This document shows positions 30,382 to 36,774 of a DNA stretch of 43,080 nucleotides, one piece after another. Both the position numbers and the translations under genes were made by a program. The DNA comes from Clostridiales bacterium. GTDB taxonomy: Bacteria; Bacillota; Clostridia; Caldicoprobacterales; DTU083. The notes under the pieces are model-generated. The model made no database searches, was not told where the DNA came from, and worked only from the letters and a program-made list of their open reading frames with translations. Position 1 is the stretch's first letter. Each line of letters opens with the position of its first letter. Where the stretch lies: assembly GCA_012838915.1 (NCBI GenBank), contig DUOI01000145.1, forward strand, positions 1 to 43,080. Reading direction: 5' to 3'.

Positions 30382-32166
30382 TTAATCCTCATCCACAACT
30401 TCAACCAAACTGCCAAATGCTTCTCTGGCCTTTTCAACTATATAATCCTCGTCGGCTGTCTGCTCCTCTATCTCATCCTCCAGCATACATTCAAGTCTGA
30501 CTTGCTGTCCGGATGTTTTTTTTATCATATCCTCAATAAAGGTACGGTTGTTTTCCTGCTCAATCAACAAAACATGAAATCCCATAGACGGCGGAAAAAT
30601 CAGTTTAAACACACCGTTTTTACCCATGCGGGGCTTTGCATCCATCAGGGTAGCGTGAATGGACGGCCTTTCCTGCTCTATACCATCCATAATTTGAGGC
30701 CATTTTGATGCCGGATCCGGGCCCGTCTGAGCATCCCCGGCTTTTGTCGCAGTTGCCGCTGCCCCGACTGCCCCTTGTCGGCTTTCCGAAGGCTCTGTTC
30801 CAACAGGCTTTCGTTCCGCTTCTTTCAAACCTGAATCGGATTTCTCCAGGTAAGAATCTGACTTTTCGCTATACATATCCATTTCTGTTCCCTGTTTGAC
30901 AGCCTTTTGTTGTTCAGCTCTTTTTTTCTGCTTAACAGGTTTATTCTCCTCCCTGGCATCATCATGTAGGATGCCGGGGGTTACCGGTGCAATCATTGCA
31001 TCGGAAGCAGCCATCCCGCCGCTGCCTAATTTCTTTTCCAGGTATTCCACCCGGTCCAGAAGCGCCTCCAATGATGCTTCCTGCTCAGGCCGGCACAGCT
31101 TGACGGCTGCCAGTTCCAACAAAACCCGGGGCTGAGTACTGTATCTCATCTCGGATTCCAGGGGAGATAAAAGTTCTATAGTGCGAATCAGCCTGCCCTC
31201 ACCGGCCTTTTCAGCCTGATTCTTCAGCTGTTTTAGAGTAGACTCAGCTACGTCCAGAAGACTTTCCGGATTGCTGCAGGACTTAACAATCAAGAGGTTT
31301 CTTATATAATGCAGCAGATCCCGCAGAAAGGCATTGAAATCCTTGCCGTCGTCTGAAAGACGGCCAATATTATGCAGCAAGCCCTGAAGATTGCCGGTCA
31401 ATATGTCTTCTGCTACCTGGAATAAAAAATCCTGATCTGCTGTCCCAAGGATATTGAGAACGTCATCATTGGTGATATGGCCGCCGCAAAAGCTCATACA
31501 CTGATCCAGAAGACTGAGAGCATCCCGCATTCCGCCTTCTGCCCAACGGGCTATGGTATGTAAACTTTCTTCATCTATGGTTACATTCATTTTATCACAA
31601 ATAGCCTTCATCCTTGCTGTCAGCACTTTTTGCGGAATTCTCCTGAAATCAAAGCGCTGACATCGGGACAAAATGGTAGCGGGCAGCTTGTGAGGCTCAG
31701 TTGTAGCCAAAACAAAGACGACATGGGGAGGGGGTTCCTCCAATGTTTTCAGCAAAGCATTAAAAGCACCGATGGACAGCATATGGACCTCGTCTATGAT
31801 ATATACCTTATATCTCCCGATAGCAGGCGGAAAACGAACCTTGTCCCGCAGATCCCGTATCTCATCAACTCCGTTATTGGATGCCGCATCAATCTCCACT
31901 ATATCCATATTGCTTTCCGAAGATAAACTGATGCAAGTCTGACATTCCCCGCATGGGCCATGCTCTGTTGGCGACGTGCAATTGATAGCCCGTGCAAATA
32001 TCTTGGCGGTACTGGTCTTCCCTGTTCCACGGGAGCCGCAGAACAAATATGCATGTGCAATATGACCGCTGGCAAGCTGATTTTTGAGAGTGCGGACAAT
32101 TGTGTTCTGCCCCACTACATCCTGAAAGGTATCCGGACGCCATTGCCGGTAAAGAGCTGTATAGAT
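30382..32166 (-). CDS. dnaX: DNA polymerase III subunits gamma/tau, with apparent ATC start
   Basis: This is the clamp-loader ATPase. The conserved N-terminus YTALYRQWRPDTFQDVVGQ is encoded, but the frame has no ATG, GTG or TTG between an upstream TGA (32173-32175) and the GTG at 32115, which would cut off 17 conserved residues. The codon before TAT is ATC (32164-32166), six bases after AGGTGA, so ATC seems to be the start. Walker A is GSRGTGKTS (44-52); the zinc cysteines are C63, C72, C75 and C78. The full protein would be 594 residues (tau). An A7 run at codons 414-416 can give a 417-residue gamma form by -1 slippage. Confidence 0.93.
   Translation of the reverse strand: MYTALYRQWRPDTFQDVVGQNTIVRTLKNQLASGHIAHAYLFCGSRGTGKTSTAKIFARAINCTSPTEHGPCGECQTCISLSSESNMDIVEIDAASNNGVDEIRDLRDKVRFPPAIGRYKVYIIDEVHMLSIGAFNALLKTLEEPPPHVVFVLATTEPHKLPATILSRCQRFDFRRIPQKVLTARMKAICDKMNVTIDEESLHTIARWAEGGMRDALSLLDQCMSFCGGHITNDDVLNILGTADQDFLFQVAEDILTGNLQGLLHNIGRLSDDGKDFNAFLRDLLHYIRNLLIVKSCSNPESLLDVAESTLKQLKNQAEKAGEGRLIRTIELLSPLESEMRYSTQPRVLLELAAVKLCRPEQEASLEALLDRVEYLEKKLGSGGMAASDAMIAPVTPGILHDDAREENKPVKQKKRAEQQKAVKQGTEMDMYSEKSDSYLEKSDSGLKEAERKPVGTEPSESRQGAVGAAATATKAGDAQTGPDPASKWPQIMDGIEQERPSIHATLMDAKPRMGKNGVFKLIFPPSMGFHVLLIEQENNRTFIEDMIKKTSGQQVRLECMLEDEIEEQTADEDYIVEKAREAFGSLVEVVDED
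30919..30947 (-). promoter_or_regulatory. Candidate dnaX programmed -1 slip site with upstream SD-like element
   Basis: The minus strand reads CAG AAA AAA AGA GCT GAA. A -1 slip on the A7 run (30921-30927) gives AAG AGC TGA, a stop after two codons. AGGGAGGAG lies 18 bases upstream (E. coli dnaX has AGGGAG at 10 bases). No strong downstream stem-loop is seen. Confidence 0.5.
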
Positions 32167-32212
32167 AACGGTTCACCTGCCTTCCACTGGGTCTTCTTTC
32201 TTTTGTCATACC

Positions 32213-32221
32213 ATTATATCA
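32213..32221 (-). promoter_or_regulatory. Possible extended -10 promoter of dnaX
   Basis: TGATATAAT on the minus strand (TATAAT at 32213-32218) is an extended -10 element about 47 bases before the ATC start. The -35 at the right distance is poor (TAACAA). Confidence 0.45.
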
Positions 32222-32284: not shown

Positions 32285-33382
32285 TTATACTACCTTTCGG
32301 ATTTTACCCACTGCAAGAAGAGCAACAGGCATAATAAAACATAAAAATATATTAATTGGTAAGCCAATGTAATCTGAGAACTGCTCCAGCTCCAATCTGT
32401 TACTACCCAGATAAAAGGCAAAAATGAAAGCAAATAAAATAAGCGGACTTATAAAATGTTTTACTTCTGAAAGGGAAAAAAGAAATTTTATGATACTGAC
32501 AGCCAGATAAAAAAAGAAGCTGATAACCGTGAAATCAATAAATACCCAGAATGCCAGGGCTACCGACTCAATCCGCTCTATTGTTTCCAGTAGTGATATG
32601 CTTTTTATGGATACAAAATAGGGCAGCGGAATTCGCTGTATTACAGTATGTCCATAAACACCAATGGTCTGTATCAATAGCATTAAACCTGTAATTGTAA
32701 GAAACAGGACTGCTTGCAGGCCAAACCTGCGGATGTGCTCCTTATCGTTTATTTTATCCCCAAGAAAGAACACCAGGGAAAAATATCCCCATATACCAAG
32801 CAGGGATTTAATTGTTCTGGTCAAAGGTATAATATCAAATTGTATTACCGGGAACAAATTAATAAGCTGCACATTCGGCAAGCTGAACAGGAATAATGAT
32901 AGAAAAACTATAAAAAAAAGGTAAAAAAGAAATTCAACCGTCCTGGCCATATTCACTATCCCGCCTCTGACAGCATAAAAAACAGCAGTGAGCATGGTTA
33001 TATAAAAAAAAGTGGGTGTGGTATTAGGCAGAAGGGATGATAATAATCTCTCCGCAAAATACCTTATGTATAGGCCCGTCAATATCATAAACCATACAAG
33101 ATAAAAAGCCAGTATCGCCCTTCCCACAACATTCCCGAAAACCTTTATATAAAGTCCTGCAAGGCCGGCATCCTTTTGCTTTTTAAACAACGATTGCATT
33201 ATGTAAACCAGACAGATTAATGGCAGCACTGAAAATAACGGGGCCAGCCATCCGGCCCGCCCTACCGTTTCCGAAGCATATTTTGGTATTATCCGTATAA
33301 CCGCTGAGCCTTGAGCGGTAATAAAAAGAATGACAGCCTGACGCGTAGAAATCTTGTCTGTGGATGCCAGCATCCATATCAC
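32285..33382 (-). CDS. Spore germination protein, GerAB/GerKB family permease
   Basis: This 365-residue protein has about ten membrane segments and belongs to the APC-type GerAB family that binds the germinant in the inner spore membrane. The start segment STDKISTRQAVILFITAQGSA is characteristic. It is the last of four co-directional genes in the order A, C, small protein, B. The GTG at 33382 overlaps the preceding TAG by one base; ATG at 33373 is an alternative start. Confidence 0.92.
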   Translation of the reverse strand: MIWMLASTDKISTRQAVILFITAQGSAVIRIIPKYASETVGRAGWLAPLFSVLPLICLVYIMQSLFKKQKDAGLAGLYIKVFGNVVGRAILAFYLVWFMILTGLYIRYFAERLLSSLLPNTTPTFFYITMLTAVFYAVRGGIVNMARTVEFLFYLFFIVFLSLFLFSLPNVQLINLFPVIQFDIIPLTRTIKSLLGIWGYFSLVFFLGDKINDKEHIRRFGLQAVLFLTITGLMLLIQTIGVYGHTVIQRIPLPYFVSIKSISLLETIERIESVALAFWVFIDFTVISFFFYLAVSIIKFLFSLSEVKHFISPLILFAFIFAFYLGSNRLELEQFSDYIGLPINIFLCFIMPVALLAVGKIRKVV

Positions 33383-33579
33383 TACTTCCTGCCGATTATT
33401 GAAAGCAAAAGCTTTGAAAAGCTTGTACGTTCCGGGTCAATATAATAGAATATGCCAAACAGTCCAACAAGCAGCATAAATATAACATACACCACAATTT
33501 CCTTCTTCTGCTTCTTTGTTTTCATCTGAAGGATATCATAAACACCCAGCCCGGCCATGATTATAATAAAGTAAATCAT
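33382..33579 (-). CDS. Small two-helix membrane protein of the ger operon (GerD/GerKD-like)
   Basis: This 65-residue protein has two hydrophobic segments (MIYFIIIMAGLGVYDIL and EIVVYVIFMLLVGLFGIFYY) separated by a Lys-rich cytosolic loop (KTKKQKKE). Small membrane proteins of this size are common as a fourth gene (D) in gerA-type operons, where they modulate germinant response. It follows the C gene by one base and overlaps the B gene by one. It is tied to the operon by position rather than by a strong motif. Confidence 0.75.
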   Translation of the reverse strand: MIYFIIIMAGLGVYDILQMKTKKQKKEIVVYVIFMLLVGLFGIFYYIDPERTSFSKLLLSIIGRK

Positions 33580-33580
33580 A

Positions 33581-34801
33581 TTATTTCATTCCTTTGATTC
33601 CACTTGGTTGATCCAATTCATAGCTTCTTCTTATCCGGGACTCAACCTCTACATGAATTTTCAAATATTGTAATATCTCATTCCACCGCTTCTCTATCTT
33701 GTGCCATTTCACTGGGTTTCTCAACCTGATCATGTCACAGATGTTAAGGCAATCCGATTCTGACTCCCTAACCACTTCCAACACCTTCCTCATTTCATTT
33801 TCCAAAATAGCAGATTGCTGGGCTTCCATGTACTCGATATTCTCCTCATATATGGATGGCACCTGGGATTGGATTTCCCCCAGATTGCTTACTACTTTAG
33901 TCCTCAGGGTTACTTCCTCGAGGATGTCACCTGTAAAATGAGGTATAGCCTCAGTATTGCTGAAAATGATCTCAAGGGAAACATCTTCCCCATTTAAGTC
34001 CTTTACAGTGACTATAGATGAGTCAATGTTATTGGTGATTAGATTAACTCCCCGTGATATATCTCTTCCAGTGTAGGTGACCAGCTTCAAATCTGCAGCA
34101 ATCGCATATCCATCACTCTCGATGTCAGGAGCTTTTTGCCCCTTATCGCTTTCTCGGTCAACCAGCTGGATACAGGGAATACGGGCACTGCCAAAATGGA
34201 TATCGAAAAACCTCATCAATTCCACCAGTTCCAGTTCTTCTGACGTGCCAAGCAGCTTGTAGCTCCGACCCAAACTTTCCAGCTTGTCTGCTATATAGAA
34301 TTCCGACTGATTGAACTTAATCATTAAATCCTTGGCAGTTGTCCCCTTAACGATATAAACTTTGCCGTTTAATTGAAACTCATGGTCTCGGGAAATAAAA
34401 TCAATGTATTTGGCAATATCATCACGTGCTGCTTCTTCCCCAATGAGAAAGTATTTGGTATGAGCCCAAAACAAGGTTTTGTCAGTATTGTTTTGAATGT
34501 TCCGTGCTGCATCAAAAAGCGTTTTCCCCTGAGCCGTGGTAATCAATGCCTTGCTGCCCGGGCTGATTTTCCCTTCTCCCCCGCCGCCATCCTGCTGGGT
34601 TTGCCCGCCCTCTGACTGATCCAATTTTCTGCTGGCTATAGTGATAATGTGATTACCGGGCACTTCAGTGGATTTGTCAAGGCCAAGCACCTCTGCCAAC
34701 AGCAAATCATCAATCTCTCTCCGCTGAGGCAGTGTGGCTGTGCGGCATCCCGAAATACTCAACACAACAACTACAATCAATGAAATAACCAGGGTTTTCA
34801 T
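33581..34801 (-). CDS. Spore germination lipoprotein, Ger(x)C family
   Basis: This 406-residue protein has a lipoprotein signal peptide with the lipobox LSISGC (Cys near residue 18) and the Ger(x)C fold, with the conserved start LLAEVLGLDKST and later GKTLFDAARNI and FWAHTKYFLIGEEAA segments. It sits on the outer side of the spore inner membrane as the C subunit. ATG at 34801 follows AGGTGG. It begins 11 bases after the A gene stop. Confidence 0.93.
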   Translation of the reverse strand: MKTLVISLIVVVVLSISGCRTATLPQRREIDDLLLAEVLGLDKSTEVPGNHIITIASRKLDQSEGGQTQQDGGGGEGKISPGSKALITTAQGKTLFDAARNIQNNTDKTLFWAHTKYFLIGEEAARDDIAKYIDFISRDHEFQLNGKVYIVKGTTAKDLMIKFNQSEFYIADKLESLGRSYKLLGTSEELELVELMRFFDIHFGSARIPCIQLVDRESDKGQKAPDIESDGYAIAADLKLVTYTGRDISRGVNLITNNIDSSIVTVKDLNGEDVSLEIIFSNTEAIPHFTGDILEEVTLRTKVVSNLGEIQSQVPSIYEENIEYMEAQQSAILENEMRKVLEVVRESESDCLNICDMIRLRNPVKWHKIEKRWNEILQYLKIHVEVESRIRRSYELDQPSGIKGMK

Positions 34802-34812
34802 TTAACCACCTG

Positions 34813-36342
34813 CTACCGACGCTTTTTGTTAATGGTTTTTAAGGTTTGAGGTCTTTTCATCATAAACGGCAGCGGCATCCGGAACAATGTATCATCAGCC
34901 ATTTGCTTCACCTCACTGGGAGCGAAAGGAGTAAGATAGGGTACCCCAAAGGTTTCTATGGTGCTCAAATGATATACCAGCATGATAAAGGCCAGAGAAA
35001 GCCCATATAAACCGGCAATGGAAGCGCACAGCACTAATATCATGCGTAAAAGCCGGATTGCATTGTTCATATCCTGGTTGGGTATAATGAACCCGGCAAT
35101 ACCGGTAACCGCTATGATTATTACAACAACAGGAGAGATCAGCTTGGCCTGGACGGCTGCCTGCCCCACCACCAATGCCCCGATGATGGAAACAGCCTGA
35201 CCGATGGCCCTCGGAAGCCGGATGCCGGCTTCCAGCAGCATTTCGAAAGCAATCAGCATTCCGATAATAGATGAAACGGTAGGAAAAGGAACCTCCGTTT
35301 TGCTTCTGATAATGGTGATAGCCAGTACTGTGGGTATCATCTCCTGGTGGAATGTGGTTACAGCAACATAGAATGCAGGCAGAAGAAGGGCAATAGAAGA
35401 CGAGACATAACGAAGCAGCCGAATAACGGAACTGATTGTGAAATGGTAGGCATAATCCTCAGGTGCTTGAAAAAACAGGATAATTCCGGCCGGAGCAATA
35501 TATGCAACGGGCATACCGTCAATAAGGATTCCCACCCTGCCCTCTATGATGTTGGCACAAAATTTATCTGCCCTTTCCGTGCTCAGTACCTGTGGAAAAG
35601 GGGAACCTCTTTTATCCACAATGTATTCTTCGATAAAGCCTGCAGCTATTACCGCATCTTCACTAATGCTGTCAAGACGCTCGATTACCTCCCTGACAAT
35701 GTTTTCATTAGTCAGGTTTTCAATATATACCACTGCTATCGGTGTCCTGCTTTGTCGTCCCACCGTGGTTTCCCTTATCCTCAGATAAGGTGTACGAATT
35801 CTTCGACGTACCAAAGATGTATTAACTCGGAGGACCTCAACAAATGCATCCTTGGGTCCCTTTACTGCATTTTCGCCGGTGGGCTCAGTGATGCCTCTTT
35901 TTTCAAATCCCTTGGCATCAAAGGTAACGGCCCGTTTTTCCTTATCAAATATCAAGGCAACCGAACCATTCAGAATTTCGTTCAATACGTCTCCCAAACT
36001 GGTCTGTATTTTCCGGGAGGCATGATATACCGTTCCATGTTCAATCAATCCAATTAAATCATCGAATCCCTTTACCTCCCCAAGATCCTTTTCCTGAGTC
36101 AATGGCTTCAGGATATCATCACTGACCAATTTTACATCAACCATACCGTCCACAAAAACAACCGTCACCGGAAGATGCCGATTCCCGTTTATGTAGTGTT
36201 CCTGATATATGATATCGCTGCTGTCAGCTAAAATGGTTTTCACATTGGCTGTCGTGATAACTTTATTATTGCCTTCAAATTCATCCAGCAAGTATTCTGT
36301 ATCAGGCCCGGCCGGTTTCTTCTTCGTCCAGAAATGCTTCAC
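34813..36342 (-). CDS. Spore germination protein, GerAA/GerKA family
   Basis: This 509-residue protein has a large soluble N-terminal part (residues 1-270, including DVKLVSDDILKPL and RRIRTPYLRIRETTVGRQS) and about five membrane helices in the C-terminal half (PTVSSIIGMLIAFEMLLEAG, MVYHLSTIETFGVPYL). This is the A subunit that forms a ring channel in the spore membrane. The start is GTG at 36342 after GGGGGGAG. It is the first gene of the operon. A clear sigma-G promoter could not be placed in the 110 bases upstream. Confidence 0.95.
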   Translation of the reverse strand: MKHFWTKKKPAGPDTEYLLDEFEGNNKVITTANVKTILADSSDIIYQEHYINGNRHLPVTVVFVDGMVDVKLVSDDILKPLTQEKDLGEVKGFDDLIGLIEHGTVYHASRKIQTSLGDVLNEILNGSVALIFDKEKRAVTFDAKGFEKRGITEPTGENAVKGPKDAFVEVLRVNTSLVRRRIRTPYLRIRETTVGRQSRTPIAVVYIENLTNENIVREVIERLDSISEDAVIAAGFIEEYIVDKRGSPFPQVLSTERADKFCANIIEGRVGILIDGMPVAYIAPAGIILFFQAPEDYAYHFTISSVIRLLRYVSSSIALLLPAFYVAVTTFHQEMIPTVLAITIIRSKTEVPFPTVSSIIGMLIAFEMLLEAGIRLPRAIGQAVSIIGALVVGQAAVQAKLISPVVVIIIAVTGIAGFIIPNQDMNNAIRLLRMILVLCASIAGLYGLSLAFIMLVYHLSTIETFGVPYLTPFAPSEVKQMADDTLFRMPLPFMMKRPQTLKTINKKRR

Positions 36343-36505: not shown

Positions 36506-36774
36506 GCTGTGCACCTGCCTCTGATCTGACCTCATAAGCGGTAACCGAGCAGTTAACTCCTACCAGGCTTCCCTGCGGCACACGCAGATGTCCACTTACT
36601 GCTGCTTCCTTCCGGACCTGACAGGGTTCATGGTTCCCCGTTGCACAGGACCCGGTACTCAACATCACTTACTCGGGCCAGAGCCCTACAAGCACCAAAC
36701 CGCGGGCAGGAATTCAACCCCGCTATAGCGGATTGCGGGTTACAGGGCACCGCTACCTCCCCGTCTAGCACAGC
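36506..36774 (-). ncRNA. ffs: Signal recognition particle RNA, large (Bacillus) type
   Basis: The domain IV hairpin is seen on the minus strand as GTCAGGTCCGGAAGGAAGCAGC (reverse complement of 36601-36622), with the GGAA tetraloop and the asymmetric loop that binds Ffh. The 5' and 3' ends pair (GCTGTGC at 36774-36768 with GCACAGC at 36512-36506). The RNA is about 269 nt, with a UGUAA motif near the 5' end that marks the Alu domain, as in Bacillus scRNA. In Bacillus the gene lies directly before dnaX; here the ger operon lies between. Confidence 0.95.

Follow-up and report, generated by a model that had tools for sequence, protein, structure and literature searches.

Locus and Sequence around the dnaX Start

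The question raised by this locus is where translation of dnaX, the gene of the DNA polymerase III subunit gamma/tau, begins: the conserved N-terminus of the protein is encoded here in a frame that lacks an in-frame ATG, GTG or TTG for it. The gene occupies positions 30382..32166 of the minus strand (stop codon TAA included; 594 residues counted from the ATC discussed below) in the window, by which we mean the whole analysed stretch of 43,080 nucleotides, located in contig C111 of the draft assembly (2.18 Mb, 149 contigs) of a spore-forming representative of Clostridia. The product is DnaX: it matches TIGR02397 with an E-value of 1e-140 over all model positions (1-355 of 355) as well as NF004046 (E-value 4e-184), and its orthologues from the same family are identical to it by 60-76% over the full length or by 83% over the N-terminal part. 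The genes following dnaX are a YbaB/EbfC gene and then recR.

Read along the minus strand in the dnaX frame, the sequence is ...GGAAGGCAGGTGA ACC GTT ATC TAT ACA GCT CTT TAC CGG CAA TGG. The codon TAT of the conserved tyrosine (32163-32161), which corresponds to the first position of the TIGR02397 model, directly follows ATC (32164..32166, minus strand), and the latter stands 6 nt after the putative Shine-Dalgarno sequence AGGTGA (32173..32178, minus strand), whose last three bases are an in-frame TGA (32175-32173). After this stop codon the first ATG, GTG or TTG of the frame is GTG at 32113..32115, the 17th codon from the tyrosine. The earlier note on this DNA had described both the lack of a standard start between the TGA and this GTG and the position of ATC right before TAT, six bases after AGGTGA; sequence, coordinates and spacing agree with that description. 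Based on the comparisons given below, we consider it very probable (about 0.92) that translation of dnaX starts at ATC in this organism.

Between the large SRP RNA and dnaX, the window contains a spore-germination cluster (32285-36342 and 36507-36773, both on the minus strand) with the domains PF03323 (GerA), PF05504 (GerAC) and PF03845 (permease). Since the SRP RNA directly precedes dnaX in three relatives (G001, G003, and G010), this cluster may have been inserted here.

Conservation of the Probable Start Codon in Related Species

A search within the family retrieved eight species forming one clade (support 100/98), the deep branching order of which is poorly supported by the tree. The codon before the tyrosine is ATC in three of them (G000, G001, G003), ATT in two (G002, G005), and ATG in the remaining three (G004, G009, G010). 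Thus, its first two bases are invariant in all eight species and ATH is exchanged only with ATG, while the two codons preceding it vary, the nearest of them being GTT, CTT, CTT, GTC, ACC, GTG, CCA, and CCA. This pattern exceeds chance: fixed AT amid variable neighbors would be unexpected in an internal or untranslated codon but is what one would expect if the initiator tRNA, with its anticodon CAU, decodes this triplet as the start. In four of the ATC/ATT species (G000, G001, G002, G005) an in-frame TGA is located three codons upstream. The fifth, G003, is the only one of them with in-frame ATG and GTG upstream of ATC; its ATC may be internal, and we treated this species as ambiguous and left it out of the unambiguous ATC/ATT cases.

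The Shine-Dalgarno sequence is shared as well. The distance from AGGTGA to the codon in question is 6 nt in G000, G001, G002, G004, and G005 and 5 nt in G003, and comparable motifs in the remaining families of the order precede the TTG, ATG, or GTG starts of dnaX by about 5 nt. Initiation at the preceding codon, GTT, would reduce this distance to 3 nt in the window. AGGTGA is complementary to the 16S rRNA 3' end, GGATCACCTCCTTT, as read in the relative G009; a search for this end in the organism's own draft genome gave no match.

The start codon in close relatives, the check that had been suggested for this locus, thus lends support to initiation at ATC. It also bears on the possibility of a sequencing or assembly error, with ATG as the true codon or an indel hiding an upstream start, which might be suspected in a draft of 149 contigs. 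The relatives are represented by separate assemblies (e.g., LFTC01, DURK01, DUSN01, JAAZHD01, DUOA01), and those that come from different species and genera (LFTC01, DURK01, DUOA01, JAAZHD01) likewise have ATC or ATT at this place. Such independent recurrence excludes a read error as the general cause: as an explanation for the whole group it is already refuted by these sequences, and for the window itself we regard it as extremely unlikely. Together with the shared Shine-Dalgarno sequence, the same evidence excludes a local frameshift and a start at the later GTG as the explanation.

Several other findings in related genomes should be mentioned. The draft G005 contains a second dnaX (L016, G005:C21), which has a TTG start and groups with the family f2 beside G017; it is probably a contamination of that draft. 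In the dnaX of G008 (L015), the nearest standard start before the tyrosine is a TTG four codons upstream (TTG AGT GAA GAG TAT), and a Shine-Dalgarno-like motif lies far from this candidate start. As to G011 and G012, no dnaX was found in them: their weak matches (about 35% identity) were rejected as dnaX and probably represent the delta-prime paralogue.

Other Possible Routes of Translation

A start at GTG (32113..32115), giving DnaX without its first 17 or so residues, would be the choice of any gene finder restricted to ATG, GTG, and TTG, this being the first standard start in the frame. However, GTG is not conserved, as G001 has GTT at this position; the next standard start comes at codon 86 in G001 and at codon 63 in G002, in both cases past the Walker A motif, which would thereby be removed from the protein. 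Moreover, the residues that would be skipped are nearly invariant, and inspection by eye revealed no AGGTGA-like site before GTG. We therefore reject this codon as the start, its use being hardly credible.

Upstream of dnaX, a promoter scan predicted an extended -10 element, TATAAT (32213..32218, minus strand; TGATATAAT; 10/12 matches with TG), which is conserved within the family and would give a 5' leader about 40 nt long. Folding of this leader revealed no structure at the start stronger than in shuffled sequences. An ATG (at 32209 in the window) adjoins the likely transcription start in G000, G003, and G004, and in G000 the open frame crosses the dnaX start; one might imagine that ribosomes slip from an upstream ORF begun at this ATG into the frame of dnaX, or that initiation on dnaX depends on coupling to an upstream ORF that stops at the TGA. 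However, the frame of the ORF relative to dnaX differs among the relatives, a shared slippery site was not seen in them, and in G000, G001, G002, and G005 a TGA interrupts the upstream frame 0, all of which makes such routes very unlikely. In particular, the out-of-frame ORF 31889..32209 (minus strand), which overlaps the dnaX start, was rejected as a leader or frameshift route after inspection of the relatives by eye revealed no ORF in a constant frame. Another candidate, a slippery A-run at codon 414 of the organism's own dnaX that could be related to tau/gamma formation, was also dismissed, as it is not conserved in the relatives.

Rarity of the Proposed Near-Cognate Start

In a sample of the class taken outside the order, we considered 94 dnaX starts, 90 of which were readable (71 located by motif and 19 by position); the loci L120, L126, L127, and L204 were unreadable by motif and left out. 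All 90 readable genes have a standard start close to the tyrosine. Among those located by motif, it is placed two codons before the tyrosine in 41/71 and directly before it in 25/71. This qualifies the earlier claim that ATC stands exactly where other DnaX proteins start: it is true of the organism's own subclade (8/8), but most DnaX proteins have the arrangement Met-x-Tyr, with methionine one residue further upstream, and the start directly before the tyrosine is a local form of this subclade of the family.

The organism's own genome was scanned by comparing about 316 kb of it with about 1.1 Mb of relatives, which provided 147 genes that had homologues as well as a stop codon upstream in the same frame. 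Only two of them, infC and dnaX, have an N-terminus that is conserved at the protein level and lacks a standard start, which indicates that the lineage does not use near-cognate starts freely. The other 16 of the 18 raw candidates were rejected on reading; they proved to be either conserved leaders preceding a standard start or the antisense of the SRP RNA.

A further objection concerns not the start itself but its meaning: the ATC/ATT start may be real and non-regulatory, a drift from ATG made tolerable by a good Shine-Dalgarno sequence. Indeed, ATG, ATT, and ATC occur side by side in a single clade with poorly supported deep branches, and its three members with ATG show that the weak codon is not indispensable. 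On the other hand, ATC or ATT is found in species whose DnaX is only 67-76% identical to that of the window, though a single base change would restore ATG, and no other such case except infC occurs among the 147 genes. Tolerated drift is quite possible, and we regard it as a serious rival to selected control.

infC and Other Genes with Near-Cognate Starts

Near-cognate starts as such are a known kind, represented by infC, pcnB, sigR, ccpN, and cvfC1. The infC gene, to which the dnaX start had been likened, proved an apt comparison: the organism's own infC reads AGGTGA-ACAAAT-ATT with an in-frame TGA and thus shares with dnaX not only an ATH start and a close AGGTGA but also the 6 nt spacing and the position of the stop codon, and it serves as an internal positive control. 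Its first in-frame standard start is codon 49 after the TGA, so gene finders limited to ATG, GTG, and TTG would truncate IF3. Across most of the order, infC starts with ATT, ATC, or ATA (including L218, L088, and L094) after AGGTGA with an in-frame TGA. There are differences, too: IF3, the product of infC, controls the translation of its own gene, whereas DnaX is not an initiation factor, and the unusual start of infC is kept across the order as well as in Escherichia coli, Streptomyces, and Staphylococcus aureus (PMC5472188, PMC13009471), while that of dnaX is confined to one clade in our survey.

As for non-regulatory genes, the enzyme encoded by pcnB of E. coli (AUU), the subject of the work of Binns and Masters of 2002, is reportedly held at a low level by its inefficient start. 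This was said to be shown by experiment, and it concerns another gene in another phylum.

Within Firmicutes, a likeness is provided by ccpN (AUA) and cvfC1 (AUU) of S. aureus, whose conserved non-canonical starts are directed by extended start-proximal Shine-Dalgarno sequences (PMC13009471). However, ccpN encodes a transcriptional repressor and cvfC1 a small putative regulator, while dnaX is an essential replication gene; besides, their starts were mapped by ribosome profiling and reporters (PMC13009471), whereas that of dnaX is placed here by comparison. Expression from AUU and AUA starts that have an extended Shine-Dalgarno sequence reaches about 10% of the AUG level in S. aureus in poor medium (PMC13009471). 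In Streptomyces, sigR is likewise a gene other than infC with a non-canonical start, GTC and not ATC, and its repression by IF3 is experimental (PMC5472188), in contrast to dnaX, for which it is only presumed; infC has ATC there and ATT in E. coli (PMC5472188). In vitro, the first two codon positions tolerate Watson-Crick pairs only, and IF3 excludes weak pairs at the third position (PMC10158994). No earlier report of a near-cognate dnaX start was found in the open-access literature.

Proposed Mechanism and Its Implications

In this organism and in its sister genera, translation of dnaX very probably begins at a conserved near-cognate codon, which is AUC in the window and either AUC or AUU in relatives. 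The start-proximal AGGUGA would place the 30S subunit at AUC, which the initiator fMet-tRNA (anticodon CAU) should read through its first two bases, the predicted N-terminus of the protein being (f)Met-Tyr-Thr-Ala-Leu-Tyr. According to published results on other genes with near-cognate starts and on IF3, AUC should lower the synthesis of DnaX and confer sensitivity to IF3. The decrease, which could be several-fold relative to AUG, is probable by this analogy. As IF3 discriminates against AUC initiation, the output of DnaX could follow the IF3 state in the way that of infC does, although a physiologically meaningful link of this kind appears rather unlikely.

Few bacterial genes with near-cognate starts have been described, and they are mostly known from regulators; dnaX would add to them an essential replication gene with such a start in several genera, beside an infC of the same layout. 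Genome annotation restricted to ATG, GTG, and TTG would misplace its start. As to the biology of the family, its DnaX synthesis might belong, together with infC, to a small set controlled by IF3, with AUC or AUU linking the supply of the clamp loader to how translation initiation stands at a given time and, through it, replication capacity to the growth state. We find this doubtful; the case of dnaX makes it possible to test directly if the activity of IF3 adjusts the supply of the clamp loader.
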